From Bacteroidales bacterium (GTDB lineage Bacteria; Bacteroidota; Bacteroidia; Bacteroidales; UBA932): a stretch of DNA of 32,166 nt. The stretch covers positions 1 through 32,166 of the forward strand of contig JAFUUB010000059.1 of assembly GCA_017483985.1 (NCBI GenBank). Direction: 5' to 3'. The notes below the pieces were generated by a model. It ran no database searches, was not told the origin of the DNA, and saw nothing but the letters and a program-made list of their open reading frames with translations. Positions 4,086 through 30,002 of the stretch are shown in pieces. Within the stretch, counting starts at the first letter, position 1. Every line of letters starts with the position of its first letter. A program made the position numbers and the translations under genes.

Positions 4086-6977
4086 TCAATAGCCGAAGAT
4101 TTCTTCCAGGCTGACGGTCTTGACGGGACCAAGGCTGCGGAGGAAGGCCATGTCCAGGTCGGCAGGGTCGCCGAGGATGCCGTAGACATAGGTCCGTCCG
4201 TCCACCCACTGGGCCTTGGTGGCCATGAGGTCGGCGAGGGTCATGCCCGGGACCTGCTCGAAAACGAGCCGGTCGTCCGGTTCGGCGATGCCCAGGTCCT
4301 CACAGGCGAGGTAGGCGTTCAGCACGCCGATGCCGGTGGTGCGTCCGGTACGGAGCCGGGACAGGATGGCGGTCTTGGCGATGTCGAAGGCCTTTTCGGA
4401 TTCCGGCATTTCGCTGATGATCTCGTCGAAAGCCGTGACGGCGGCCTTGAGCTTGTCGTTCTGGGAACCGATCGTGGCCGCGAAGGAATAGCTGTCACCG
4501 GCGAAGGCGGGGGCGGAGAGGGAACCGCCGGCGCTGTAAGCCAGGGCCCGGGACTCACGCATTTCCTGGAAGACGATTCCGTTCATGCCGCCGCCGAAAT
4601 ACTCGTTGAAGAGGGTGATGGCCGGCTGGGCTTTCCCGTCGTAGGCTTCGCCCCGGTTGGAGTACTGGATGTAGTTGAACTGGCGGGCGCTGTACGGCGC
4701 GATCACCACGGCGGCCTGCGGCGTCTGCAGGCGGGGCTGGCGCGTCTTGGTGACCGGCTCGAGGGCCTCAGGGACCGGATGGACGGCCGCGAGGGTCTGG
4801 CAAAGGGCGTCCGCCTCCTGCGGTCCATAGTAGAGGATCCGGTGCTGCTTGCCCACCAGGCCGCGGACCTTGGCGAGCAATTCCTCGGAGGTCAGCGCCT
4901 TGAGCTGGTCGTTGGTCAGGGTCGTCTTGCGGATGTACTCGGGCCCATAGGTGATATAGCGGCGCAGGGCTGCGTTGCAGGCGCGCTGGTTGAGCTTGGC
5001 ATCCGAGCGGTTCTTGAGCGCATCGGCTTTCAGGCTTTCCAGGATCGCATCGTCGCCGACGGCGTTTGCCAGGAGGTCCTCGACGAGGGCGATGGCCTTG
5101 TCCAGGTTCTCCCCGAGGCCGTTGAAGGAGATGACGGTCCCGTCGCCGCCCGCACTGGCGCCATACGAGCAGGCCAGGCGGTAGAGTTCGGATGCGATGT
5201 CGGCCGCACTGCGCTCCGGCGTGCCGAGGTAGGAGAGGTAATCGAGGGCGAATCCGAGGGCCGGATCGGCGGCGGTGCCCAGGTCAAACCGGTACTGGAG
5301 GGTGGCGATGCCGTTCAGGTCGTTCTTCTTGTAGAGGATTTCCAGACCGCGGTCCTGGCGTTTCTCCATGTCGGTGCCGAAATTCACGAAGACCGGCTCG
5401 ATGGGCTTGGGAACGCTGTTCTGGATATCCTGGAGGAAGGCGCTCTGGAGGTCGCGGTTGGTGACGATCGGCGTGATCTTGGGGGCTTCGATCTTCTGGA
5501 TGTTCGGATCCTGTCCCAGGTGCTTGTAGGCGATGACATAGCTTTCTGCGCCCAGGTATTTCTGCGCCCAGGCCACGATGTCCTCCTTGGTGATGGCTTC
5601 GATCCGCTCCTGCAGGCGGGTATCGTGGGCCCAGTCGTTGCCGCCGATGAAGGAATCGACGAAGAGCATGGCCCGGCTGCGGTTGTTCTGCAGGCTGCGC
5701 ATCCGGCTCAGTTTCCAGTTGTTGATGGCGGCCTCGACAAGCTTGCCGTCGAAGTCTCCTTCCCGCAGGCGGGCCACTTCGCCCAGCAGCAGGTCACGGA
5801 CCTCCTTCAGGTCCTGTCCTTCTTTCGGCACTCCGATCAGGAGCATCTCGCCGTAGTCGGTACGGCCATAGGGGAAGGCCTGGACCTCAGCGAGTTTCTG
5901 GGCCTGTGCAAGGTCCAGGTCCATCAGGCCTGCCTGGCCGTTATAGAGGATGGCTCCGGCAATCTCCGCGATTTCGCTGTCGGTGTCGGTGGTACCGGGA
6001 TAGCGCCAGCCGATCATGGCGAATTCGGCGTCGTAACCCAGGACGTGCTTCTCCACGGGAGCCGTGATCGGCTGCTCCGCCTCGTATTGCAGGGCCGGGA
6101 CGCTGGCCGTGGCCTTCCAGTCGCCGAAGTATTTCTCGATGACCTTGATCATCTCGTCCGGATTGAAATCGCCGGACAGGCAGATCGCGCAGTTGTTCGG
6201 GACGTACATGAGCGCTTTCTGGCGCTTGATGGCGGTGATATCCGGATTCTTCAGGTGCTCCTGCGTGCCGATGACGGTCTGGGTGCCGTACGGATGGTGG
6301 GGGAAGAGGACGGAGTCGATGGCGACCATCGCTTTCTCCGTGTCGTCGGTCAGCCCCTGGTTGTATTCTTCGTAAACGGCTTCCAGTTCGGTGTGGAAAC
6401 CACGGACGACCATGTTCTTGAACCGGTCGGACTGGACCTTGGCCCAGTTCTCGACCTGGTTGGCCGGGATGTCTTCCTGATAGCAGGTCACATCGCTGGA
6501 GGTGAATGCGTTGGATCCTTCGGAGCCGATCAGGGCCATCATCTTGTCGTATTCATTCGGGATGGCCAGTTTCGAGGCTTCGTAGCTGACCGAGTCGATC
6601 TGGTGGTAGATAGCGGCACGTTCGGCCGGATCCGTCTTGGTGCGGTAAACGTCATAAAGGGCCTGGATCTGGTCGAGCATCGGCTTCTCGGCTTCGAAGT
6701 CGGTGGTGCCGACGAGCTGGGTGCCCTTGAACATGATGTGCTCGAGGTAGTGGGCGAGACCGGTATTGTCGGCCGGGTCGTTCTTGCCGCCGGAACGGAC
6801 AGCGATGTAGGTCTGGATGCGCGGGGTCTCCTTGTTGACGGTCATGTAGACTTTCAGGCCGTTGTCCAAGGTGTAGATCTTGGCGTCAAGCGGATCGCCG
6901 GCAACGGTCTGGTACCGGTTGCAGGCGGTGGCGAGCAGGGCGGTGGCCACTGCGGCGAAAAGAAGGATTCTCTTCAT
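4086..6977 (-). CDS. M16 family zinc metallopeptidase, two tandem M16 units, lipoprotein
   Basis: A 963-residue pitrilysin-family peptidase with an N-terminal signal (MKRILLFAAVATALLATACN). Cys19 is a probable lipidation site, although -3 is Ala rather than Leu. The inverted zinc motif HxxEH is intact as H76-Y-L-E79-H80, and the downstream acidic helix ELEAVYEEYNQG supplies the third zinc ligand. The second half (from about residue 540) is the catalytically inactive M16C partner, with the usual SREALAYS-like segment written here as SRALAYS. M16 enzymes of this size form a clamshell that degrades peptides; this one is probably periplasmic or surface-bound and feeds amino-acid fermentation. It diverges from the tricorn-like protease, so the two peptidases share an intergenic control region. 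A weaker TATCTTTA box lies at 7005-6998 for this strand. Confidence 0.93.
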   Translation of the reverse strand: MKRILLFAAVATALLATACNRYQTVAGDPLDAKIYTLDNGLKVYMTVNKETPRIQTYIAVRSGGKNDPADNTGLAHYLEHIMFKGTQLVGTTDFEAEKPMLDQIQALYDVYRTKTDPAERAAIYHQIDSVSYEASKLAIPNEYDKMMALIGSEGSNAFTSSDVTCYQEDIPANQVENWAKVQSDRFKNMVVRGFHTELEAVYEEYNQGLTDDTEKAMVAIDSVLFPHHPYGTQTVIGTQEHLKNPDITAIKRQKALMYVPNNCAICLSGDFNPDEMIKVIEKYFGDWKATASVPALQYEAEQPITAPVEKHVLGYDAEFAMIGWRYPGTTDTDSEIAEIAGAILYNGQAGLMDLDLAQAQKLAEVQAFPYGRTDYGEMLLIGVPKEGQDLKEVRDLLLGEVARLREGDFDGKLVEAAINNWKLSRMRSLQNNRSRAMLFVDSFIGGNDWAHDTRLQERIEAITKEDIVAWAQKYLGAESYVIAYKHLGQDPNIQKIEAPKITPIVTNRDLQSAFLQDIQNSVPKPIEPVFVNFGTDMEKRQDRGLEILYKKNDLNGIATLQYRFDLGTAADPALGFALDYLSYLGTPERSAADIASELYRLACSYGASAGGDGTVISFNGLGENLDKAIALVEDLLANAVGDDAILESLKADALKNRSDAKLNQRACNAALRRYITYGPEYIRKTTLTNDQLKALTSEELLAKVRGLVGKQHRILYYGPQEADALCQTLAAVHPVPEALEPVTKTRQPRLQTPQAAVVIAPYSARQFNYIQYSNRGEAYDGKAQPAITLFNEYFGGGMNGIVFQEMRESRALAYSAGGSLSAPAFAGDSYSFAATIGSQNDKLKAAVTAFDEIISEMPESEKAFDIAKTAILSRLRTGRTTGIGVLNAYLACEDLGIAEPDDRLVFEQVPGMTLADLMATKAQWVDGRTYVYGILGDPADLDMAFLRSLGPVKTVSLEEIFGY

Positions 6978-7037
6978 GTTTCAGGAAAATTTGACGGTAA
7001 AGATAGAAAAGAATCTTTACAATCTGAAAAAACCGTA

Positions 7038-7068
7038 TTGGTAATGCCGGGAATTAACCTTACCTTTG
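7038..7068 (+). promoter_or_regulatory. Promoter of the tricorn-like protease
   Basis: TTG (7038-7040), a 20-base spacer and TACCTTTG (7061-7068) match the Bacteroidota consensus. Transcription would start near 7073-7076, leaving a leader of roughly 30 bases to the ATG at 7103. An in-frame TTG at 7070 lies inside or beside the promoter and is not a credible start. Confidence 0.7.
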
Positions 7069-7102
7069 GTTGAGGCATGATTATGAAGCCTTTGACAACA
7101 GT

Positions 7103-10100
7103 ATGAAACAACAGATCCTTTCCCTCCTTGCCGGCTTCGCCGCCCTGGCCTGTGCGGCCGCGCCTGCCGGCAACATCCGGTTTGCTTCACATCCGTCCCT
7201 CTCTCCGGACCGGAAGCAGATTTACTTCAGTTACGACGGGGATATCTATTGCGTCCCCTCCGCCGGCGGCCAGGCTGCAGCCCTGCTGACCATGCCGGGC
7301 GTCCAGGATTCCCCACTTGTCTCCCCGGACGGGAAATGGCTGGCTTTCAGTTCGGATATCCAGGGGAACAACGATGTCTACGTCGTATCCCTGGCCGGAG
7401 GCGCGGCGGTACAGCTGACCTTCCATGAGGCTCCGGACGTACCGGTCGGCTGGTCGGCTGATTCCCGGTACATTTATTTTGAATCGACCCGCGCCAGTGC
7501 CCGCAAGACGACCTTCCGGGTCGCGGTCGGCGGCGGCACGCCGCAACAGATGTTCGACGGTTTCTTCAACACGGTGGTCAACCTGACGGAGAATCCGGCG
7601 ACCGGGGAATTCCTTTTCAACGAATCCATGGAGAGCATCAGTTTCCCGACCCGCAAACGCTATGTCGGCGACCACAATCCCAATATCAAGTCCTGGAATC
7701 CCCGGACCAAGACCTACAGCGAACTGACCGACTACATCGGGAAAGACCAGTGGCCCATGGCGGACCGCGGCGGCACCATCTATTATGTCAGTGACGAGGC
7801 TAACAAGGAATCCAACATCGTCAAGTATGTGAAAGGCGGCAAGCCGGTGCAGCTCACGGCCTTCGACCGTTCCGTCCAGTATCCGTCGATCGCCTTCGGC
7901 GGCAGCGCCATCGTGTTCCTCAAGGATTACGAAATCCATGTCCTGGACCTACCCGGGGGCACGGTCCGCGTGCCGCAGATTTCCGTGGCGTCCGGCAGCG
8001 TGGAGGTGCGCCGCTCCTTCACCGAGCAGACCCCGACCGCCGCGGACGTATCGCCGGACGGAAAGAAATTCGCCCTGGTGATCCGCGGCGGACTGTATGT
8101 CTCCGACACCAAGTGCAAGTTCCTGCAGCGGCTTGCCACCCCCGCCGATGAGCGGGTCAGCGAAGTGGTCTGGGGCGATGACAGCAAGACCCTTTATTAC
8201 ATACGGACGGAAAAAGGCTGGACGAACTTGTACCGGATCCCGGCGGACGGCTCTGCCGGCGAGACGGCGGTCTTCGTCTCCGAGAACAATTCCAAGAACC
8301 TGACGGCCAACGCCAAACGCACCAAGCTCGCCTTCATGGACGGCAGCCGCGCCGTCATGCTCCATGACCTGAAGACCGGGGCGGTTACCCAGGTGGCCGA
8401 AGCCGAGTTCTGGTCGTTCCAGGGCTACGACCTGTCGTTCTCCTTCGACGACCGCTACCTGGCCTTCGATGCGATGCACCTGTTCGAACCGGACGTTTTC
8501 CTGTACGACCTGAAAGAAGGGAAACTGACCAATCTCACGCATTCCGCGGCCGTGGAGCACGGCGCCGTCTTCTCCCCGGACGGCCGGAACCTGTATCTGC
8601 TGGCCAATCCCACTTCCGCTTCCTTCCCGAAGGGGACGCGGGCGTCGCTGTACAAGCTCCCGCTCCGCAAATACGACGCGCCTTTCAAGTCCGCGACCGT
8701 CGAGGATCTTTTCAAGGACAAGAAGGACGCTCCCGCCAAGGACTCTTCCGTGGTGATCGACTTTGCGGACATCCATGAGCGGATGACCCGCGTCGAGCGG
8801 GACGGCAGCCAGAGCGGCCTCTATGTCTATTCGACGAAAGGGAAGGATTACCTGCTGTACCGTTCCTACGGCTCGGGACCGGGCGGAACCTTTGCGCTCG
8901 AGATCTCGGATCCCGAGGCCAAGCCCAAGCAGATCAAGGATCTGAGCGGCGGCTCCTTTTTCAGCTGCAAGGACGCCCTGTACTGCCTGTCCTCCGGCGC
9001 CGTCTACAAGGTGGACCCGGGAGCCGGCTCTGCCGTCAAGACGGCCGTGTCGAAGGATGTGGAGGTCGTCCTGGGAGACGAGTTCAGCCAGATGTTCCAT
9101 GAGGCCTGGGCCGTGCTGGAGCAGAATTACTACGACGTCAACTTCCACGGGACGGACTGGCGCGCCGACCGGGATTACTATGCTTCCTTCCTGCCGTATG
9201 TCCGTACCCGGGCCAACCTGCGGACGCTTATGACGGACCTGCTGGGAGAACTGAATTCCTCGCACATGGGCTTCACGTCCAATGGCTCGGAAGAAAAGCA
9301 GGAAACGCGGATCCGGACCTATGGGACCGGTATCGTCTTCGACAACGCCGCCCCTTACAAGGTGTCGGGGATCCTGGCCGGATCGCCGGCGGACAAGTAC
9401 GGGATCGATGTGCGCAGCGGCGACCGCCTGGTGGCCGTCGACGGCCGGCGCATCGATGAGCGGCAGAACCGGGAACGCTACTTCTCCGGAGCCGTCGCGC
9501 GGGATGAACTGCGGCTGACGTTCAGCCGGGGTGGGAAGGAATTCGATGTCAAGGTCCATCCCGCTTCGTTCTCCGCGGTCAAGACGCTTGCCTACAAGGA
9601 GTGGGAGACGCAGCGCGCCGACAGGGTCTCGGCACGGACCGGCGGGAAGGTCGGATACATCCACATGCGGGCGATGGGCGCCGAGGACCTGGATTCCTTC
9701 CTGCTGAAGATGCATACCGAGGTGTATGACAAGGATGCCCTGATCCTGGACCTGCGCTACAACAACGGCGGCAACGTCCACAAGGAAGTCATCGATTTCC
9801 TCCGCGGACAGGCCCATTTCGAATGGTCCTACCGGGATTTCCCGAAGACGAGCCATCCGAATGTCGCCCCGGCCGGCAAGCCGATCGTCGTCCTTGTCAA
9901 TGAGCACAGCCTCTCGGATGCGGAGGTGACGTCCAACGGCATCCAGACCCTGGGCATCGCCAAACTGGTCGGAACGGAGACCTACCGGTGGATCATCTTC
10001 ACCTCTTCGGTCCGCCTGCTGGACGGATCCACGGTCCGGATGCCCGCCTGGGGCTGCTACAGCGTCGTGACCGGGAAGGACCTGGAGAATACCGGCGTCA

Positions 10101-18633: not shown

Positions 18634-20703
18634 CTAGTCCGCGAATATCATCTCGTCGAAGAGATAGCCGGCGTGGCCGATGTATTCGATGTTGAAGAGC
18701 AGGTAGCGGATGTCCAGGGAGATGTTGCGGCAGATTTCCGGATCGTAGACGATGTCACTCATCGTCCCTTCCCAGACGCGGTCGAAGTTGATGCCGATCA
18801 GGTTGCCGTCGGCATTGATGACCGGGCTGCCGGAGTTGCCGCCGGAGGTGTGGTTGGTGGCCAGGAAGCAGACCGGCTGGTCGTCGTGGCCGCCTTCGGC
18901 ATAGATGTCCCGCAGGGTCTGGGGAATGTTGTAGTCGAAAATCTCCGGATTGTCCTTCTGGATGATTCCCTTGAGCGTAGAGACCGGACGGTACCAGGTG
19001 GCGTCCGCCGGCTCGTATCCGGCGACTTGGCCGTAGGCGACGCGGAGGGTCAGGTTGGCATCCGGATAGAACGCCTTGTCCGGCTCGAATTCCATCTGGC
19101 CCTTCATGTAGTCGCGGTAGGCGAGGTTGATCTCGGTCCCGGTCCGGTTGATGACCGGACGGAGTTCATTGTAATACCACTGGTAGAACGCATCGTAGAG
19201 TTTGACAGCCGGATCCTCGGCGACTTTCTCCCGATCCGCAGCCGTCAGGGTGAGAACTATCTCCTTGTCGGTGAAGAGGGTCTTGGCGAAAAGGTCGTCC
19301 CGCCATGCTTCGGCAGAGCCATAGGCCTGCATCTGCTCTTTGTAATAGGCCGGCTGGAAGTCCGGGGACAGCTGTTCGCCGAATGCCTTCATCAGCACGG
19401 CAAACACTTCTTCGTCAATGGGTTGGTAGTAGTCTTTGAAGAACGATTCGACATATTCGTCTTTGGCGGCTTTGTCATCCAGGCGGGCGCGGACGTTGGA
19501 CGCCAGCTGGAGCAACTCGGTCGGCCGGGCCGCTTCGGTATAGTACTCGTACGCCCGGTAATAGGGCTCCCGCTCGGCGTACAGGGCTTCCAGTTTCTCG
19601 AGCAATCCGTCATAGCGGGTTCCCTTCGCCCACTGCTTGAAACGGGCCTCGTAGGCCTTCTTTTCCGCCACGGTGTTCATTTTGGCGATGCCCTTGGCCT
19701 CGCCCTGCCATTTCTTCCAGGCGTTGGACACACTGGCCGCCTTCGAAGAGTATTGGATGCGGACGGCCTGGCTCTGGGCCATGTATTTCTTGATGATGTC
19801 CAGCCGCAGGGTGCGCAGGGCGATCTTCTGCGGGTCGGAGACCTCGCCGACATAGCGGACGTCATCGGAAGTGACATATTCCTTGGTACTGCCGGGGCAG
19901 CCATAGACGAAGGTGAAGTCGCCGTCTTTCACGCCGGCACGGGAGATCTTGAAGAATTTCTTCGGGCGGTAGGGGACATTCTCGGGACTGTAGTCGGCCG
20001 GATTGTTGTCCTTGTCGGCGTAGACCCGGAAAATGGAGAAGTCGCCCGTATGGCGCGGCCACATCCAGTTGTCCGTATCGCCGCCGAACTTGCCGATCGA
20101 GGACGGCGGGGCGCCGACCAGGCGGACATCCCGGTAGACCCGGTAGACGAAGAGGAAGTACTGATTGCCGTAATAGAGGGCTTCGACGCTGGCCCGCAGG
20201 CCCTTGCCTTCCGCCGTAGCGGCCTTGACCAGGGCGTCGGAGTTCTTCCGGACCAGGGCGGCACGCTCTTCTTCGGTCATCTTGGACTTATAGCCTTTGA
20301 GTACGGCGGCCGTGACATCTTCCATTCGCTCCAGGAAGCTGACAGTCAGACCTTTATTGGGAAGTTCCTCGCTTCGGCTCATGGCCCAGAATCCGTCCTT
20401 GAGGTAGTCGTGTTCGACGCTGCTGTGCTGCTGGATCTGGCTGTATCCACAGTGGTGGTTGGTGAAGAGCAGCCCCTGGTCGGAAACCAGTTCTCCGGTG
20501 CAGCCGGAACCGAACAGGACGACGGCATCCTTGAGGGAGGCCTGGTTGACGCTGTAGACATCTTCGGCGGAGAGTTTGAAACCCTTGGCCTGCATGTCGG
20601 CGATGCGCTGGGAGATCAGGGCCGGCAGCCACATGCCTTCGTCCGCCTTGAGCGGACAGGCGGCGACGATGAGCGCCAGCAGGAACAGAAGCTTTCTTTT
20701 CAT
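18634..20703 (-). CDS. S46 family dipeptidyl peptidase, DPP11-like
   Basis: A 689-residue periplasmic serine exopeptidase releasing dipeptides from peptide N-termini. The signal peptide is MKRKLLFLLALIVAACPLKA. The chymotrypsin-like catalytic elements are visible: FTNHHCGY (His83/His84), the DNWMWPRHTGDF segment carrying the Asp, and GGNSGSP with Ser624. The residue that sets P1 preference in this family (Gly673 in DPP7, Arg673 in Porphyromonas DPP11) falls at Arg642 in the sequence INFDRVWEGTMSD, predicting preference for Asp/Glu at P1 (DPP11 type). The frame is open far upstream of ATG 20703 through the divergent operon, but that part is antisense to the alarmone synthetase; ATG 20703 begins the signal peptide. 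A TATATTCG box at 20735-20728 could be its promoter. It complements the M16 and tricorn-like peptidases in peptide use. Confidence 0.94.
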   Translation of the reverse strand: MKRKLLFLLALIVAACPLKADEGMWLPALISQRIADMQAKGFKLSAEDVYSVNQASLKDAVVLFGSGCTGELVSDQGLLFTNHHCGYSQIQQHSSVEHDYLKDGFWAMSRSEELPNKGLTVSFLERMEDVTAAVLKGYKSKMTEEERAALVRKNSDALVKAATAEGKGLRASVEALYYGNQYFLFVYRVYRDVRLVGAPPSSIGKFGGDTDNWMWPRHTGDFSIFRVYADKDNNPADYSPENVPYRPKKFFKISRAGVKDGDFTFVYGCPGSTKEYVTSDDVRYVGEVSDPQKIALRTLRLDIIKKYMAQSQAVRIQYSSKAASVSNAWKKWQGEAKGIAKMNTVAEKKAYEARFKQWAKGTRYDGLLEKLEALYAEREPYYRAYEYYTEAARPTELLQLASNVRARLDDKAAKDEYVESFFKDYYQPIDEEVFAVLMKAFGEQLSPDFQPAYYKEQMQAYGSAEAWRDDLFAKTLFTDKEIVLTLTAADREKVAEDPAVKLYDAFYQWYYNELRPVINRTGTEINLAYRDYMKGQMEFEPDKAFYPDANLTLRVAYGQVAGYEPADATWYRPVSTLKGIIQKDNPEIFDYNIPQTLRDIYAEGGHDDQPVCFLATNHTSGGNSGSPVINADGNLIGINFDRVWEGTMSDIVYDPEICRNISLDIRYLLFNIEYIGHAGYLFDEMIFAD

Positions 20704-20779: not shown

Positions 20780-20787
20780 TATATTTG
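20780..20787 (+). promoter_or_regulatory. -7 box of the six-gene alarmone/partner-switch operon
   Basis: TATATTTG is a perfect TAnnTTTG box 21 bases before the ATG at 20809. No exact TTG is present at -33. Transcription would start about 15 bases before the first gene. Confidence 0.6.
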
Positions 20788-20808: not shown

Positions 20809-21915
20809 ATGACCATGCCCACGCCAGAAATCCAGTTGACACCCCACGCCGAAACGATCCTGGAGCAGTATCGTGCCCTGGAGCCGTTCCTGGGGAAAAT
20901 GGCGGATGCCCTCACGGACAAGCTCCATCGGTATTTCGAAGAGGCCGGCCTGGTTCCGGCTGCGTTGGAACACCGCGTGAAGACGGAGGCCTCCCTGGTG
21001 GGGAAACTGGAACTGAAAGGGGATAAATACCGGGATATCTATGATATCACGGATCTGATCGGGCTCCGGGTCATCACCTTCTATGCAGACGATGTGGACC
21101 GGGTGGCTTCGGTGATGGAGCACCATTTCGGCATCGACTGGGAGAATTCCGTCGACAAGCGGAAGGCCCACGAGACCGACAGTTTCGGCTACCTGTCCCT
21201 GCACTATATCTGCCGGGTGCCGAAAAGGCTGTACTACCGGCGGGGCCATCCCGAACTGAACAACCTGCGGTTCGAAGTCCAGATGCGGACGGTCCTGCAG
21301 CATGCCTGGGCCAACATGAACCATGACACAGGCTACAAATCCGGGGTGGAAGTGCCGCGGATCTACCTGCGCCAGCTCAGCCGTCTGGCCGGCATCCTGG
21401 AACTGGTCGATGACGAATTCGGCCGGCTCCGGACCGAAATCACCGATTACCGCCGCCGGATGCAGTCGCTGGTCGCCTCCGGCCGCCTGGACGAGGTCGC
21501 CCTGGACGGGGACACCTTCCGCAGTTACCTGGAGGTTGGTCCGTTCGATGAGTTGAACCACCGGATCGCGGCGGTCAACCAGGCGGAGATCCTGCCCGTC
21601 TCGCTGATGCATTTCCTCCCGCTGCTGCAGCGGCTGGATTTCAGGACGCTGGAAGACGTGGATGCCATGATCCGGGACTGCTCCGAGGGGGCCTACCAGC
21701 TCGCCCGTTACCAGATCGGACTTTCCGATATCGATATCATCTCCTCTTCCATCGGCCTGCAGAACCTGTGCCTGGTCCATACCCTGAAAAAGGGCGGCGG
21801 CGTCCCCGGCGTCCGTTTCGTGCTGGACCAGCTGAACGGTCCCTCGGACAGCAACCTGCCGATGGCGGAGTATCTGGTGTCCCAGGCCCGGGGCCTTCCT
21901 TTCATGAACCAATGA
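20809..21915 (+). CDS. RelA/SpoT-type alarmone synthetase without hydrolase domain
   Basis: A 368-residue protein with a RelA/SpoT nucleotidyltransferase domain at residues ~40-200 and no HD or TGS/ACT domains. Synthetase residues are in place: R56-V-K58 and Lys66/Lys70 (ATP and phosphate contacts), Asp82 in YDITDLIGLRVI (metal), FGYLSLHY with Tyr128 and His132 (GTP stacking), and Glu156 in FEVQMRT (catalytic). The usual HAWAEIEHD element reads HAWANMNHD, with Asn169 and Asn171 for the two Glu residues. The C-terminal ~170 residues are helical-looking and unassigned. It probably makes (p)ppGpp, but a toxSAS-like activity (ppApp synthesis or tRNA pyrophosphorylation) cannot be excluded. ATG 20809 is preferred; ATG 20815 is possible. 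The hydrolase gene follows after four bases. Confidence 0.87.
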   Translation: MTMPTPEIQLTPHAETILEQYRALEPFLGKMADALTDKLHRYFEEAGLVPAALEHRVKTEASLVGKLELKGDKYRDIYDITDLIGLRVITFYADDVDRVASVMEHHFGIDWENSVDKRKAHETDSFGYLSLHYICRVPKRLYYRRGHPELNNLRFEVQMRTVLQHAWANMNHDTGYKSGVEVPRIYLRQLSRLAGILELVDDEFGRLRTEITDYRRRMQSLVASGRLDEVALDGDTFRSYLEVGPFDELNHRIAAVNQAEILPVSLMHFLPLLQRLDFRTLEDVDAMIRDCSEGAYQLARYQIGLSDIDIISSSIGLQNLCLVHTLKKGGGVPGVRFVLDQLNGPSDSNLPMAEYLVSQARGLPFMNQ

Positions 21916-21919
21916 CGCC

Positions 21920-22498
21920 ATGCCCAACCATCCGATAGATACCTCTTTGCTAGACCGTGCCATCATCTATGCCGTCCGTGCCCATGCCGGGGTGCAGCGG
22001 CGGGGGAAAGGATTCCCATACATCGTCCATCCGATGGAAGCGATGGCGATCGTGGCCACGCTGAGCCCCGACCAGGAGCTGCTGGCCGCTGCGGCGCTGC
22101 ATGATGTTGTCGAAGATACCGAAGTGACCATCGAGGATATCCGGACGGAATTCGGAGACCGCATCGCCGGCTTGGTGGAGGCGGAGAGCGACAAGTTCGT
22201 GGAGGGCGTTTCGGAGTCGGACAGCTGGCGCAGCCGCAAACAGGCGGCGATCGACCGGTTGGCGGCGGCGCCCGAAGAGGTCAAGATGGTGGCGATGGGC
22301 GACAAACTGTCCAACATGCGGGCCATCGCGCGGGATTACGCCGTGCAGGGGGACCGGCTCTGGGAACTGTTCCATGTAAAGGACCGCGCCTCCCATGAAT
22401 GGCATTACCGGGGGCTTGCCGACTCGCTCCGGTCCCTGGCCGGGACCCCGGCTTATGAAGAATTCGAACGATTGATAGACCAAGTTTTCGGGAAATGA
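21920..22498 (+). CDS. Small HD-domain alarmone hydrolase (MESH1/SAH-like)
   Basis: A 192-residue stand-alone HD phosphohydrolase like the SpoT hydrolase domain or MESH1. All expected residues are present: RRGKGFPYIVHP with His37, the HD pair His61-Asp62 in ALHDVVEDT (Glu65 and Asp66 follow), and GDKLSNMR with Asp128 and Asn132. It would remove the 3'-pyrophosphate from (p)ppGpp using Mn2+. It lies four bases after the synthetase and overlaps the next gene by four (ATGA), so translation is probably coupled. The pair supplies synthesis and breakdown as two separate proteins, like a split Rel enzyme or a toxSAS with its enzymatic antitoxin. Confidence 0.88.
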   Translation: MPNHPIDTSLLDRAIIYAVRAHAGVQRRGKGFPYIVHPMEAMAIVATLSPDQELLAAAALHDVVEDTEVTIEDIRTEFGDRIAGLVEAESDKFVEGVSESDSWRSRKQAAIDRLAAAPEEVKMVAMGDKLSNMRAIARDYAVQGDRLWELFHVKDRASHEWHYRGLADSLRSLAGTPAYEEFERLIDQVFGK

Positions 22499-23331
22499 CA
22501 GAACCGATCAAGATATCCCTGGATGATTACGTGCTGACCGGTGGCGGATTCAATGGCGAAAGCTATGACCACAAGACCGATCCGGACGTGATGTTGAAGC
22601 TTTATTTTCCGGGCAGGATCCGGCAGCCGCTGGACGAGATGCTGATGGCACGGAAGGTGTATGACCTGGGCATCCCGTCGCCGGAGCCGGGCGATTATGT
22701 CGTGACCGAAGACGGTCGGTACGGGATCCGCTTCCGCCGCATTCCCGGCAAGGTCTCGTATGCCAGGGCGACGGGGGATCATCCGGAAAAGGTCGGCCAG
22801 TATGCCGCGGAGTTCGCGCAGATGTGCCGCCTGCTGCACGGCACGCATGTGGATACGGGCCAGTTTGAAAATGTGAAAGGACGGTATCTGCACCTGTTGG
22901 AAGAGAACCCGTTTTTCACCACCGTGGAAAAGGACCGTCTGGCCCGTTTTATCACGGATGCCCCCGATACCGATACGGCCATCCACGGCGACCTGCAGTT
23001 CGGCAATGCCATCTTTGCCGGGAACGAGCGGTATTTCATCGACCTGGGAGATTTCTGCTATGGTTACCCGATGTTTGACCTGGGCATGCTGTATCTGTGC
23101 TGCAAACTGGATAAGGGACCTTTCCTCGAGGAGACGTTCCATATGACCTCGGAGACGGCGTCGCGGTTCTGGGATGCCTTTGCGCCGGTTTATTTCGGCG
23201 CTGACCGTCCGCTCCGGGATATCGAAAAGGAAATCCGGCCTTATGCTGGGTTGAAAGCGCTGATCATTGAACGGGATGCCCATGAACCCAGGCCGGAATT
23301 CCATGCGGTTTTGCAAGAAGTATTGAGATAG
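22495..23331 (+). CDS. APH-like phosphotransferase (TIGR02172-type)
   Basis: A 278-residue kinase-fold protein of the aminoglycoside/choline kinase superfamily. It has an N-lobe glycine loop (LTGGGFNGESY), Lys35 in VMLKLYF, the catalytic loop H164-G-D166-L-Q-F-G-N171 and the metal motif FIDLGDFCYGYPMFDLG (Asp183/Asp186), all intact. The pattern fits the TIGR02172 paralogous family, whose substrate is unknown to me. Nothing suggests drug resistance: it is embedded by a 4-base overlap in a chromosomal signalling operon. It may phosphorylate a small molecule or a protein of this module. It is followed after seven bases by the phosphatase gene. Confidence 0.85.
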   Translation: MTEPIKISLDDYVLTGGGFNGESYDHKTDPDVMLKLYFPGRIRQPLDEMLMARKVYDLGIPSPEPGDYVVTEDGRYGIRFRRIPGKVSYARATGDHPEKVGQYAAEFAQMCRLLHGTHVDTGQFENVKGRYLHLLEENPFFTTVEKDRLARFITDAPDTDTAIHGDLQFGNAIFAGNERYFIDLGDFCYGYPMFDLGMLYLCCKLDKGPFLEETFHMTSETASRFWDAFAPVYFGADRPLRDIEKEIRPYAGLKALIIERDAHEPRPEFHAVLQEVLR

Positions 23332-23338
23332 AGATTCC

Positions 23339-25411
23339 ATGATGAAGATATCCAAAGCATTGCGTCGTCTCCATGTCCGGGAAGGGGTTGCGCTGATTCT
23401 GGTAGCGGCCATCCTCCTGGAGTCGATCGCCCTGGTGCAGTGGTATTTCTCCCGGAAAGGCCTTCTGGAAGAAGCGACGCACCGTGCCCAGAGCGAGTTG
23501 GAGGTGAACCAGCTCGAGATTGAAAAAATAACGGGTTCGGTTGAGACGGTCGCGCGGAACACCGCGTGGACGCTGGAGTTTGGGCTGGAACATCCGGATA
23601 TGGTCTGGGGCATCCTGCACCGGCTGATGGAAAACAATCCCGATGTCAAGGATGTGGCCGTCGCCTATGTGGCGGACTATTTCCCTTCGGAAGGCCGCTG
23701 GTATGAACCGTTGCTGGCGCGTCGGTCCGACGGTACGGTCGAGGAAATGGTCCTGGGATCGGAAAGCCACGACTATCTTGGCAGAGATTGGTTTACCGTC
23801 CCCCTGCAGAGCGACAAGGGTTCTTGGAGTGAACCTTATTTTGATGAGAGCGGCGGCAAAACCATGGTCGTTACCTATTCTGAACCCTTGCATGACGGAA
23901 CGGGAAAGCCGGTCGCGGTCCTTGCCATCGACCTGGCCCTGGACTGGCTGACGGACCTCGTGGAGGGGATCAATGTTTATCCGAATGCGTACAGTACCTT
24001 GACCAGCCGGAGCGGGGAAGTCCTTGCCTGTCCCGCCGAGACCCTGACCATTGGAAAGGCCCTTCGCTATGAGACGCCTCTGGACAGGACCGGTTGGAAA
24101 CTGTCCGTGGTGATTCCGGAAGAGGATATCTATGGCGGAATCCGGAAGGTCGGGCTGATCGTCACGGTTCTGCAACTGCTCGGCCTGCTGATCCTGGGAC
24201 TGATCGTCCAGCATTCCGCCCGGGAGCAGGCCAAACTGGAGGCGGTCGAGGCCGGCAAGGAACGGATTGAGAACGAATTGATGATCGCCAGCCGTATCCA
24301 GCGGTCGATGCTGCCGAAAGTCTTCCCGCCTTTCCCGGAACGATCGGATGTCGACCTGTATGCCGCCTTGCTGCCGGCTAAGGAAGTCGGCGGCGATTTC
24401 TATGACTTTTTCATCCGCGATGAGCGCCTGTTCTTCTGTATCGGTGATGTGAGCGGAAAGGGCGTTCCTGCCGCATTGGTCATGGCGATGACCCGCAGCC
24501 TGTTCCGGACGGTTTCCAATCATGAAAAGAGCCCTGCCCGGATCGTCACCATCATGAACGAAAGCATGACGGACATGAACGAAAGCAATATGTTCGTCAC
24601 CTTCTTCTGCGGCGTCCTGAACCTGACCTCCGGCCATTTGCGCTATTGCAATGCCGGCCATAACGCCCCGGTGCTGCTGACCAACGTCATCGAACCCCTT
24701 CCGGTCGAGCCGAACCTTCCGCTCGGCATCCTGGCCGGTATGGCCTTCAAGGAGCAGGAACGGGATCTCTCCTATGACGATGCCCTTTTCCTGTATACGG
24801 ACGGCATCACGGAGGCGGAGAATGAAAAGAAAGATTTTTTCGGCGAACACCGGATGCAGGAGGCCCTCCGGAAACGGGGCAGTGCCAAAGAGCATCTGGA
24901 GAATGTCGGAAAGGCCGTCCGGCACTTTGTCGGCGGCAATGAGGCCAATGATGACCGAACCATGCTATTCCTCCATTATATGAACAAGATTCTCCCTGAC
25001 GCTTCCGAGCGTCACCTTGTCCTGCACAACGATATCCAGCAGATTCCGCAGCTGGCCGACTTCGTCGGAATCATTGCGGAGGAAATGGGACTGGAGCAGA
25101 GTCTGGCCATGGGCCTGAACCTGGCATTGGAAGAAGCCGTGACCAATGTCATCCTGTATGCCTATCCTCCGGGCTCTGACGGACTGGTCGACATTGAGGC
25201 GATCATGCGGGCCAAATCGTTGGAATTCATCATATCGGACAGTGGTATACCTTTTGATCCCACGCAGGCGCCGATGGCGGATGTGACCCTGAACGTCGCT
25301 GAACGTCCGATCGGGGGACTCGGCATTTATCTGGTCCGCAGTATCATGGATTCGGTAAAATACGAGCGGAAAGACGGACAGAATTTCTTGTCGATGACGA
25401 AAAATATTTAA
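23339..25411 (+). CDS. Cache-domain membrane sensor fused to SpoIIE/RsbU phosphatase and RsbW-like kinase
   Basis: A 690-residue fusion. Residues ~16-36 are TM1; ~40-265 form a periplasmic Cache-type sensor (DYLGRDWFTVPLQ, GKPVAVLAIDLALDWL); ~271-292 are TM2; a short coiled coil leads to a PP2C-type SpoIIE domain (~325-548) with metal-binding Asp353 (GGDFYDF), Asp370 (GDVSGKG), Asp488 (LYTDG) and Asp538/539 (NDDRT). The C-terminal ~140 residues are a GHKL ATPase of the RsbW/SpoIIAB kind: ALEEAVTNVILYAY (N-box), SDSGIPFDP (Asp634) and GGLGIYL. One protein could therefore both dephosphorylate and phosphorylate the STAS protein encoded next, under control of an external ligand. Such fusions are known in partner-switch systems. 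The start could also be ATG 23342. Confidence 0.92.
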   Translation: MMKISKALRRLHVREGVALILVAAILLESIALVQWYFSRKGLLEEATHRAQSELEVNQLEIEKITGSVETVARNTAWTLEFGLEHPDMVWGILHRLMENNPDVKDVAVAYVADYFPSEGRWYEPLLARRSDGTVEEMVLGSESHDYLGRDWFTVPLQSDKGSWSEPYFDESGGKTMVVTYSEPLHDGTGKPVAVLAIDLALDWLTDLVEGINVYPNAYSTLTSRSGEVLACPAETLTIGKALRYETPLDRTGWKLSVVIPEEDIYGGIRKVGLIVTVLQLLGLLILGLIVQHSAREQAKLEAVEAGKERIENELMIASRIQRSMLPKVFPPFPERSDVDLYAALLPAKEVGGDFYDFFIRDERLFFCIGDVSGKGVPAALVMAMTRSLFRTVSNHEKSPARIVTIMNESMTDMNESNMFVTFFCGVLNLTSGHLRYCNAGHNAPVLLTNVIEPLPVEPNLPLGILAGMAFKEQERDLSYDDALFLYTDGITEAENEKKDFFGEHRMQEALRKRGSAKEHLENVGKAVRHFVGGNEANDDRTMLFLHYMNKILPDASERHLVLHNDIQQIPQLADFVGIIAEEMGLEQSLAMGLNLALEEAVTNVILYAYPPGSDGLVDIEAIMRAKSLEFIISDSGIPFDPTQAPMADVTLNVAERPIGGLGIYLVRSIMDSVKYERKDGQNFLSMTKNI

Positions 25412-25416
25412 ATTTG
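25388..25416 (+). promoter_or_regulatory. Internal promoter before the STAS gene
   Basis: TTG (25388-25390), an 18-base spacer and TAAATTTG (25409-25416) form a full promoter. The -7 box contains the stop codon of the phosphatase gene and ends four bases before the STAS ATG, so the transcript would be leaderless and carry STAS plus antiporter only. Confidence 0.7.
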
Positions 25417-25420
25417 CGAT

Positions 25421-25726
25421 ATGAAAGTTACGATCAACAAAGAGGAGAAGGCTACGGTTGTGGTTTTGACCGGCCGTCTGGATACGCCTTCTGCGCAGGA
25501 AGTCAGCAAAGCAATGGAACCCGTCGTAGCCGATGCTTCGGGAACCATCATCCTGGACTGCTCGGGCTTGGAGTATATTTCCAGTTCCGGTCTCCGGATT
25601 TTCCTGACGGTCCGAAAGGCCGCCGCCGTCCAGGGCGGAAAGGTGATTGTGAAGGGTATCAACAGCGATATCCGCAATGTCTTCATGATGACCGGTTTCC
25701 TGAACCTGTTCGAGATCGAGGCCTAG
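25421..25726 (+). CDS. STAS-domain anti-sigma factor antagonist (RsbV/SpoIIAA-like)
   Basis: A 101-residue single-domain STAS protein. The diagnostic loop DCSGLEYISSSGLRIFL carries the phosphorylatable serine (Ser55 or Ser56) at the start of helix 2. In partner switching, the RsbW-like kinase phosphorylates this serine and the SpoIIE phosphatase removes the phosphate; the unphosphorylated form binds and sequesters the kinase or another partner. The kinase and phosphatase are both in the preceding protein. No sigma factor is encoded in the window, so the output is unknown. It has its own predicted promoter and lies four bases before the antiporter gene. Confidence 0.92.
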   Translation: MKVTINKEEKATVVVLTGRLDTPSAQEVSKAMEPVVADASGTIILDCSGLEYISSSGLRIFLTVRKAAAVQGGKVIVKGINSDIRNVFMMTGFLNLFEIEA

Positions 25727-25730
25727 GAGC

Positions 25731-27188
25731 ATGCTGTCGGATCAACTGCTGCTGTTGGCATCGCTGCTGGTCTTTGCCGCTGTGCTGATCACCAAGGTCG
25801 GCGCCCGGCTGGGGGCACCGTCCCTGCTGCTGTTCCTGATCTTGGGAATGGTGGCCGGGGCCGACGGCCTGGGTCTGGAGTTCGGCCGGTATGAGATTGC
25901 CGAGTCAATCGGGCATTTTGCCATGACGGTCATCTTGTTTGCCGGCGGTCTGGAGACCTCCCTGTCCGAGACCAAGCCCGTGATCCGGCAAGGCGTCCTG
26001 CTGTCAACGGTCGGCATCATCCTGACGACCGCCTTCACCGGCATCTTCATCTATCTGACGGTCGGGAATTCCATCGGCGGTGTCGCCCTGACGTTCCTGG
26101 GCAGCCTGATGATCGCGGCGATCATGTCTTCGACGGACTCCGCGTCCGTGTTCTCCATCCTCCGCGGCAAGAACCTGAACCTGCGCGAGAACCTGGGCCC
26201 GATGCTGGAATTGGAATCCGGTAGCAATGACCCGATGGCTTTCGTGTTGACCATCATCCTGGTCGGGGTCTTTTCGACGGATGTGCAGATCGGGTCGGGA
26301 GCCCTTCTGCTGAAGGGTGCCGGCATCCTGATGGTGCAGCTGGTCGTGGGACTTGCGATCGGCCTGCTGGTGGGCTATCTGTCCAAGTGGGTACTGGAGA
26401 AGGTGGACCTGGAGAATGTGTCCCTGTATGCCATCATGGTCTTCAGTATCGGCTTCCTGGCCAATGCCCTGGCTTCGATCCTGCATGGAAACGGACTGCT
26501 CTCCCTGTACATCGCGGCCGTGATCATCGGAAACCAGGTCCAGTTGAAACATCGCCGTGACGTCCTGAAATTCTCGGATGCGATGACCTGGGTGATGCAG
26601 CTGATGATGTTCTTGATGCTGGGCCTGCTGGCGCGTCCTTCCCACATGCTGCGCATCCTGGGACCGGCCCTGCTGATCGGTCTGTTCATGCTTTTCATTG
26701 CCCGTCCGATGGCGGTCTACCTGACCCTCCTGCCGTTCCGGAAGATGAGTTTCCGGGCCAAGACCTTCGTGTCGTGGGTCGGCCTGAAGGGCGCCGGTCC
26801 GATCCTGTTCGCCTTGACACCGGTCGTCGCCGGCCTGGAAGGTGCGACCGACATCTTCAATATCGTGTTCGTCATCTCCCTGCTGTCCCTGATCCTCCAG
26901 GGCTTCTCCCTTCCGATCGTAGCCCGCTGGCTGAAGCTCAGTTACGATGCGGATCCGCAGGTCGAGACCTTCGGCATGGAGATTCCTGAGGAAATGGGCA
27001 TGCTGCGGGACCATACCGTCCTGGAAGAGGAACTGGGGGATGGGAAGACCCTCCGCGACCTGCATCTGCCCCATGGTATCCGGGTTATGATGGTCCGGCG
27101 CGGGGAACGGTTCCTGGTGCCCCACGGAAGCATGGAACTGCTTCCGGGCGACCACCTGATGATCATCCTGGGAGAGAGTGACGATTAA
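25731..27188 (+). CDS. CPA1-family K+(Na+)/H+ antiporter with C-terminal TrkA_C-like domain (NhaP2/CvrA-like)
   Basis: A 485-residue transporter with about 12 membrane segments over residues 1-395. CPA1 features are visible: MTVILFAGGLETS, SSTDSASVFSILR and LELESGSNDPMAF (the ion-binding ND pair). The C-terminal ~85 residues form a cytoplasmic regulatory domain of the TrkA_C/RCK_C kind (LRDLHLPHGIRVMMVRRGERFLVPHGSMELLPGDHLMII). It would exchange K+ (or Na+) for H+ across the inner membrane and so affect turgor and pH. It is the last gene of the operon and is also served by the internal promoter, so it may be the effector or a target of the STAS protein. The stop interlocks with the glycerate kinase stop. 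Confidence 0.92.
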   Translation: MLSDQLLLLASLLVFAAVLITKVGARLGAPSLLLFLILGMVAGADGLGLEFGRYEIAESIGHFAMTVILFAGGLETSLSETKPVIRQGVLLSTVGIILTTAFTGIFIYLTVGNSIGGVALTFLGSLMIAAIMSSTDSASVFSILRGKNLNLRENLGPMLELESGSNDPMAFVLTIILVGVFSTDVQIGSGALLLKGAGILMVQLVVGLAIGLLVGYLSKWVLEKVDLENVSLYAIMVFSIGFLANALASILHGNGLLSLYIAAVIIGNQVQLKHRRDVLKFSDAMTWVMQLMMFLMLGLLARPSHMLRILGPALLIGLFMLFIARPMAVYLTLLPFRKMSFRAKTFVSWVGLKGAGPILFALTPVVAGLEGATDIFNIVFVISLLSLILQGFSLPIVARWLKLSYDADPQVETFGMEIPEEMGMLRDHTVLEEELGDGKTLRDLHLPHGIRVMMVRRGERFLVPHGSMELLPGDHLMIILGESDD

Positions 27189-29363: not shown

Positions 29364-30002
29364 TTATTCGGGGTTGATATATTGGAGGATGAGATCGACG
29401 GCCTGGTCTTCGGACAGGTTGTCCATGTTGAGGACCAGGTCATAATTCCTCAGGTCATAGCGGCTGACACGGGCGAACCGTTTGACGAAATGCTCGCGAC
29501 CTTCATCCACCTTTTCGATGATTTGCAGGGCCTCCTCTTCGGAAACGCCCTGTTTCTGCACGATCCGCTCCACGCGGTGTTCCCTGGAAGCATGGATGAA
29601 GATGTCCAGTTTGTTCGGCTCGTCCTTCAGGACGAAGAAAGCGGAGCGTCCGGCAATGACGCACGGACCTTCCTGCGCGAAAGCGGTCAGGATCTCCCGC
29701 TCGCACCGGAAGATGTCTTCCGTGGTGGTGACCAGGTATTCGGCGGGGGACGGTCCCAGCAGGGTTTCCTGGGACGGCGCCGCCTTTACGAAAGCGGCGA
29801 ACTCGCTGAACCAGTTGGATTTTTTGCCCTTGATCCGCTCAATCTCGCCGGCACTCAGGTTGAAGCGGCGGATGAGTTCTCCGATGAGTTGCTTGTCCAG
29901 GAACCGGACCTGCAGTTTTTCAGCGAGTTTCCGCCCGATCGAGCGTCCGCCGGAGCCGACTTCCCGGCTGATGGTGATGACGAATTTTTCGTGGGTATTC
30001 AT
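29364..30002 (-). CDS. Cytidylate kinase-like family protein
   Basis: A 212-residue P-loop protein: FVITISREVGSGGRSIGRKLAE contains the nucleotide-binding loop SREVGSGGRSIG (residues ~12-23), followed by VRFLDKQLI, CVIAGRSAFFVL and a lid region with HASREHRVERIV. This is the 'cytidylate kinase-like' family (Cytidylate_kin2), common in Bacteroidetes, whose substrate is generally unproven and which is distinct from the housekeeping Cmk. It leads a four-gene operon. TACCTTTG at 30053-30046 on this strand is a probable -7 box about 44 bases upstream. Confidence 0.85.
   Translation of the reverse strand: MNTHEKFVITISREVGSGGRSIGRKLAEKLQVRFLDKQLIGELIRRFNLSAGEIERIKGKKSNWFSEFAAFVKAAPSQETLLGPSPAEYLVTTTEDIFRCEREILTAFAQEGPCVIAGRSAFFVLKDEPNKLDIFIHASREHRVERIVQKQGVSEEEALQIIEKVDEGREHFVKRFARVSRYDLRNYDLVLNMDNLSEDQAVDLILQYINPE

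Follow-up and report, generated by a model that had tools for sequence, protein, structure and literature searches.

What could hold together, in one run of genes, a predicted alarmone synthetase, a predicted alarmone hydrolase, a kinase of the APH fold, a membrane sensor that carries its own phosphatase and kinase, a small anti-sigma-antagonist-like protein and a potassium/proton antiporter? Such a run, whose genes we designate SYN, HD, APH, SPO, STAS and ANTI, lies on a contig of 32,166 nucleotides from a Bacteroidales bacterium (GTDB UBA932; GenBank assembly GCA_017483985.1, contig JAFUUB010000059.1), whose full length we call the window. Accounts of alarmone levels usually invoke starved ribosomes, the regulatory domains of long RelA/SpoT homologue (RSH) enzymes and the transcription of small synthetases. 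By comparing gene neighbourhoods within the genus, the order and the phylum, we obtained strong support for a conserved cassette of five genes, SYN, HD, APH, SPO and STAS, that would work as one system and in which the antiporter is an optional rather than an obligatory member.

Linkage of the five genes within the genus

Our genus sample comprised 121 genomes, many of them incomplete, in which co-occurrence was counted without anchoring on SYN. SYN was found in 67 and HD in 66 of these genomes; 64 carry both, three SYN without HD, two HD without SYN and 52 neither, an association far above chance (Fisher test, 6 × 10−28, not corrected for kinship). Genes less than 4 kb apart were chained into blocks, a measure that includes distant APH and STAS matches and is depressed by contig ends, and among the 67 genomes with SYN its block contained HD in 61, a match to APH in 58, one to STAS in 55 and ANTI in 18.

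A scan of named genomes, covering the best 80 of 562 confirmed SYN loci, all titled Bacteroidales, Bacteroidia, Bacteroidaceae or Prevotellaceae, gave the order SYN-HD-APH-SPO-STAS in 33 loci and the same order with ANTI in 14. The remaining loci are permuted, reduced or cut by a contig end, with 23 arrangement strings overall, and no neighbouring gene foreign to the cassette recurs in more than 11 of the 80. Pooling these loci with those fetched from the genus, removing identical SYN and requiring 2 kb on both flanks kept 74 of 100 loci, ten of the pooled regions having been chosen partly for an unusual arrangement or for the presence of the antiporter. Among the 74, HD is present in 70, APH in 72, SPO in 71, STAS in 70 and ANTI in 30; all five core genes occur together in 65, and in 69 the cassette genes all share a strand. 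A quick tree of SYN, HD and APH implies at least 30 changes of gene order and at least 11 gains or losses of ANTI.

Linkage that persists despite reshuffling is the strongest sign of common function that can be had from sequence only. The case for a single system of five genes is strong because their linkage survives reordering, the loss of single genes, fusion of HD with APH, fission of SpoIIE from RsbW and the distance between four families. An initial annotation of the window had joined all six genes in one system and had proposed a neighbourhood comparison as one test that could refute it. Related genomes do not routinely separate the five core genes, so that part of the proposal stands; the antiporter, by the counts just given, is not an obligatory member.

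Recurrence beyond the genus

We searched 295 genomes, sampled evenly across the order, for strong SYN orthologues (E value below 1 × 10−150) and found them in seven. HD or HD-APH was found in the identical seven and is adjacent in all of them, with SYN beside HD, beside HD-APH or beside APH followed by HD. The whole module is present in five (G001, G595, G697, G757 and G730), which represent four families of the order, so that the cassette recurs in three families besides that of the window. It reads SYN-HD-APH-SPO-STAS in G730, from another family, SPO-STAS-SYN-APH-HD in G757 and, with the last pair fused, RsbW-SPO-STAS-SYN-HD/APH in G595 and G697. An eighth order genome, G563, has a distant synthetase alone (E value 5 × 10−25). 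Twenty-four other families had been sampled before, with one genome each, and none of these showed the cassette. A phylum sample of 395 genomes yielded, besides G001, 14 genomes with distant synthetases only, and the 12 neighbourhoods fetched for these held no cassette partner. The cassette is thus sparse, yet not restricted to the genus.

Layout of the operon in the window

The initial annotation had placed six open reading frames on one strand here, assigned each to its family and noted no sigma factor among them. All of this is confirmed by the coordinates and by the Pfam and NCBIfam scores in Table 1, and Pfam reported no sigma-factor domain in the six operon proteins. The spacings from SYN to ANTI are, in order, 4, −4, 7, 9 and 4 bases, in agreement with the claimed gaps of at most nine bases; the 4-base overlaps claimed in the plural reduce to a single one, between HD and APH. 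The operon is flanked by a divergent S46 peptidase gene and a convergent glycerate kinase gene.

Upstream of SYN, TATATTTG fits TANNTTTG, the Bacteroidota −7 promoter element. Words of this type occur eight times on the forward strand across the whole window, which makes the match weak evidence for a promoter. A further word, TAAATTTG, fits the Bacteroidota promoter word, and STAS and ANTI might have a separate start there.

Table 1. Positions of the operon genes, their domains and neighbouring features in the window
Feature	Position	Strand	Details
SYN, predicted small alarmone synthetase, RelP/RelQ-like	20809 (or 20815)-21915	+	alternative ATGs at 20809 and 20815; RelA_SpoT 64.5 bits (Pfam)
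C-terminal helical domain of SYN	21451-21912	+	candidate regulatory domain (residues 213-366)
HD, predicted small alarmone hydrolase (SAH)	21920-22498	+	HD_4 72.8 bits
APH, APH-fold kinase near TIGR02172	22495-23331	+	APH 59.5 bits, Pfam cut-off passed; TIGR02172 214.6 bits, just under the curated cut-off of 228.2
SPO, single chain that joins a membrane Cache sensor to a SpoIIE phosphatase and an RsbW kinase	23339-25411	+	
Extracytoplasmic Cache/PDC sensor region of SPO	23450-24139	+	between the hydrophobic segments; MCP-like_PDC_1 73.2 bits (Pfam), residues 92-206
SpoIIE (PPM) phosphatase domain of SPO	24419-24976	+	SpoIIE 170 bits (Pfam), residues 361-546
RsbW-like (HATPase_c_2) kinase domain of SPO	25028-25402	+	HATPase_c_2 86.5 bits (Pfam), residues 564-688
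STAS, anti-sigma-antagonist-like protein	25421-25726	+	STAS 62.9 bits (Pfam); TIGR00377 71.7 bits, above cut-off
Ser54-Ser55-Ser56 of STAS	25580-25588	+	S54 and S55 in 86/86 proteins, S56 in 84/86
ANTI, CPA1 K+/H+ antiporter with C-terminal TrkA_C (RCK_C); optional member	25731-27188	+	NF003716 'potassium/proton antiporter' (PRK05326, CPA1) 502.1 bits, curated cut-off of 355 passed; Na_H_Exchanger 151.8 and TrkA_C 40.9 bits (Pfam)
Promoter-like word TATATTTG	20780-20787	+	21 bases upstream of the first ATG
Promoter-like word TAAATTTG	25409-25416		spans the SPO stop codon
S46 dipeptidyl-peptidase-type gene	18634-20703	-	divergent from the operon
Cytidylate-kinase-like protein (PF13189)	29364-30002	-	

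Predicted alarmone enzymes and the APH kinase

SYN has the fold and the catalytic residues of a small alarmone synthetase (SAS) of the RelP/RelQ type, and (p)ppGpp synthesis would be its activity. It differs from RelP and RelQ in an extra domain of roughly 150 residues beyond the synthetase and the small C-terminal helical bundle. In HD, residues H37, H61-D62, E65-D66, D128 and N132 are invariant in 93 of 93 proteins, and its relatives in the PDB include 4yf1, 7qoe, 7qoc and MESH1; its predicted activity is alarmone hydrolysis. All 12 genus genomes that we tested for long RSHs have two, one that keeps HDVVEDT and another whose HD motif is degenerate, irrespective of the presence of SYN. Because both are there with or without SYN, SYN and HD are additional to them. 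The RSH of the degenerate kind is encoded two genes upstream of the cassette in G119, on the opposite strand (L260:126-2201).

An SAS beside an SAH is also the arrangement of some toxSAS modules, and SYN and HD might form a toxin-antitoxin pair that the switch arms or disarms. The cassette shares with toxSAS systems such as FaRel2 and CapRel a small synthetase with a partner gene, and there is a weak PADLOC match (PDC-S33, 53.4 bits). The fold of SYN is closer to RelP/RelQ, the HD partner forms one chain with a kinase in relatives and the pair is linked to a signalling module. We regard the toxin-antitoxin reading as improbable.

APH keeps the HGDxxxxN and IDxGD motifs. A single frame without stop codons covers HD and APH in four genus genomes (G090, G119, G108 and G021), and the two are also fused in G595 and G697 (L260, L261, L049, L122, L322 and L323), both Pfam domains being confirmed for G119 and G595. 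With the G119 fusion as the database query, the best 120 of 483 matches, members of a metagenomic family, all carry both domains, a listing that a fused query biases toward fused matches (as it does for the MATE-RsbW fusion below); one of the listed matches (P0203) is named Fibrobacter sp. by its source, a name that may be a binning error. Because the two are fused, hydrolase and kinase may act on a common substrate or on one another, as the fusion suggests.

A bolder possibility is that SYN, HD and APH form one nucleotide pathway in which APH phosphorylates the alarmone, its breakdown product or HD, so that the switch would write and erase a modified alarmone, a cytidylate-kinase-like enzyme would feed the same cycle and the switch would also gate a cation-coupled transporter. 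We think this quite unlikely. In several relatives (for example L164, L166, L182, L187, L189 and L210) a gene of the PF13189 family separates SYN from HD, and in L186 one follows SYN, without HD; the family belongs to the block in 12 of the 74 loci. As a separate observation, the window has a gene of this family downstream of the operon, and in G037 one lies directly upstream of the antiporter.

The predicted SPO-STAS partner switch

The sequence features expected of a partner switch are all in place in SPO and STAS, namely the aspartates of a PPM phosphatase, the N- and G-boxes of a HATPase_c_2 kinase and the serine motif of STAS. The metal-binding aspartates of the SpoIIE domain (D353, D370, D488, D538 and D539) are invariant in 80 of 80 SPO proteins, the N-box residues E599 and N603 are kept in 79 and the G-box residues D634, G636 and G659-G662 in 78. 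We presume, by analogy to SpoIIAA and RsbV, that the phosphorylated serine of STAS is among Ser54-56; its phosphorylation by the SPO kinase and the reversal by the SPO phosphatase are presumed as the predicted reaction. SpoIIE-type phosphatase, HATPase_c_2 kinase and STAS serine motif are shared with the SigB and SigF switches (RsbU-RsbW-RsbV and SpoIIE-SpoIIAB-SpoIIAA), from which the cassette differs in having no sigma factor and in the fusion of phosphatase and kinase to a Cache sensor. SpoIIE and RsbW, one chain in the window, are separate genes in G119, G595 and G697, and G099 has RsbW and STAS with SpoIIE absent.

The sensor region lies between hydrophobic segments at residues 12-38 and 267-294. 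It is the most diverged of the parts compared, and an NMT1-type binding protein is encoded upstream of SPO in seven of 80 loci, as it is in SPO modules of genomes that have no SYN (L256, from the genus, and L257 and L258, from other families). Because of this divergence, and of the binding protein upstream of SPO in part of the loci, the Cache region fits a receptor whose ligand gets swapped.

In the nearest genome, G001, which has 23% of sampled words in common with the window, SPO matches in two frames and the gene looks interrupted (L031:6529-8524). HD and SPO each match in pieces and in different frames in G026 (L036).

The antiporter and other transporters

Twenty-seven copies of the close subfamily of ANTI occur in 26 genomes. 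In the loci, ANTI stands after STAS, before SYN or between APH and SPO, HD and APH or SPO and STAS. Might it be a passenger that frequently ends up next to the cassette, rather than an effector? Its presence in just 30 of the 74 loci points that way, as do seven of the 27 copies, which lie apart from the other searched genes, and a related antiporter group, in 13 genomes, that never co-occurs with SYN. Yet 18 of the 27 copies share a block with SYN and 20 share one with STAS, several positions are inside the cassette, such as those between APH and SPO or SPO and STAS, one of the seven separate copies (G004) has an RsbW domain directly upstream, and similar modules have other transporters, one of them fused to RsbW. 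On balance we doubt that ANTI is a passenger, while giving that explanation real weight.

These other transporters are of several kinds. A Na/Pi-cotransporter with PhoU precedes the cassette in G595 and G697 (L322 and L323, gaps of 43 and 212 bases). An NhaC antiporter directly follows the STAS of a related SPO-STAS module in L259, and in L279 the gene directly after STAS (6748-8508) encodes a fusion of a MATE transporter with a kinase domain of the RsbW type; the genomes of these two modules, G019 and G073, are genus genomes without a SYN match. Both MATE and RsbW domains are present in 120 of 120 relatives among the matches listed, two of which are named Prevotella by their sources. We read the transporter beside the switch as an exchangeable effector. 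In addition, an SBP_bac_3-permease fusion and an ABC (ATP-binding cassette) ATPase adjoin SPO in G003 and SYN-HD in G615 (L032:4201-6745 and L326:8913-11464), possibly as a further transporter partner.

A proposed mechanism and its precedents

With somewhat more confidence than doubt, our analysis favours a chromosomal signalling cassette, a partner switch whose STAS protein would control a dedicated alarmone loop, in the manner of SiaC and SiaD, optionally together with ion transport. A periplasmic ligand, sensed by the Cache domain of SPO, would shift the balance between the SpoIIE phosphatase and the RsbW kinase, and this balance would set the phosphorylation of STAS. One form of STAS would then bind and switch the neighbouring enzymes, SYN (perhaps through its C-terminal domain) and/or HD and APH, resulting in an alarmone loop apart from the two long RSH enzymes of the cell. 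Where a transporter is present, here the K+/H+ antiporter, it would be a second, exchangeable effector that ties ion flux to the same switch. Gene content, intact catalytic motifs, linkage and fusions are observed; the activities of the enzymes, the contact of STAS with them, the direction of its effect and the effector role of the antiporter are inferred.

The SiaC protein of Pseudomonas aeruginosa SiaABCD is set by a SpoIIE phosphatase and a kinase. According to an excerpt of PMC8457831, SiaC is a small switch protein that binds and activates a nucleotide second-messenger enzyme, the diguanylate cyclase SiaD. The cassette differs in pairing the switch with two enzymes, predicted to make and to hydrolyse an alarmone, rather than with a GGDEF cyclase, in that STAS would be what binds them, in that kinase and phosphatase share one chain and in its added APH-fold kinase and transporter; Pfam found no GGDEF domain among the six operon proteins, which confines the likeness to the working mode at most. 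In the nitrogen-related phosphotransferase system PTSNtr (PtsN/EIIANtr), which controls YcgO, TrkA, KdpD and SpoT, a phospho-switched protein has a CPA1 K+/H+ antiporter and, in some species, alarmone metabolism under its influence: unphosphorylated PtsN binds YcgO (PMC11808508, in excerpt), and in Caulobacter and Ralstonia the system acts on SpoT (PMC13104625, in excerpt). That phosphotransfer system is a different one, made of unrelated proteins. In Bacillus subtilis, DarB-Rel couples the potassium state to (p)ppGpp synthesis (PMC7900238, in excerpt), but DarB is a c-di-AMP (cyclic di-AMP) receptor that acts on a long Rel, with no partner switch. Pfam found neither PTS nor c-di-AMP receptor domains among the six operon proteins. 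Because these proteins have no GGDEF, CorC, PTS or c-di-AMP receptor domain, the cassette belongs to none of SiaABCD, PTSNtr and DarB-Rel.

Several observations weigh against the proposed mechanism. In G615 and G797, SYN-HD occurs alone, without the switch, and adjoins an ABC transporter of the amino-acid type (assigned by Pfam in G615), and SPO-STAS modules without SYN occur in other families (L257 and L258); together these indicate that neither part needs the other. No SYN match was found in 54 of the 121 genus genomes, many of them incomplete, some loci have no HD, APH, SpoIIE or STAS, ANTI is absent from 44 of the 74 loci, and unrelated genes follow the SPO-STAS paralogues (roughly 40% identity). 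Mirror-tree partial correlations of STAS were 0.14-0.27 with SYN, 0.23-0.27 with HD, 0.21 with ANTI and 0.05/−0.02 with APH, and just 0.02-0.20 with RsbW, the expected partner, so that the comparison lacks power. The YcgO precedent, moreover, works through CorC: Pfam reported no CorC_HlyC domain in ANTI, which ends at residue 485, just past TrkA_C (residues 437-480).

Partner switches usually act on transcription, and this one might be an ordinary switch on an unlinked sigma factor, anti-sigma factor or other regulator, with SYN, HD, APH and ANTI merely co-transcribed stress genes. The SPO-STAS modules found elsewhere without SYN are in keeping with that. Co-regulation alone, however, does not require linkage through some 30 rearrangements, and the cassette has no sigma factor (the flanking genes were not systematically checked for one); we consider an unlinked target unlikely, and prefer a STAS that would act on the neighbouring alarmone enzymes.

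Implications

Partner switching, small alarmone synthetases, small alarmone hydrolases and CPA1 antiporters are known kinds. For their combination and fusions we found no description in searches of open-access literature, which misses most subscription journals. In a review of STAS-only proteins (PMC8256260), the terms alarmone, ppGpp, antiporter and Bacteroid are all absent from the main text.

The cassette suggests that an outside signal sets an internal stress messenger in a way not described before. If so, it would be a new input route, by which an extracytoplasmic ligand sets (p)ppGpp in uncultured Bacteroidales of the gut and the rumen. It would also offer a concrete list of candidate STAS targets (the C-terminal domain of SYN, HD-APH and the antiporter tail), provide a first functional setting for TIGR02172-like kinases and, possibly, parallel PTSNtr in joining potassium and alarmone control.

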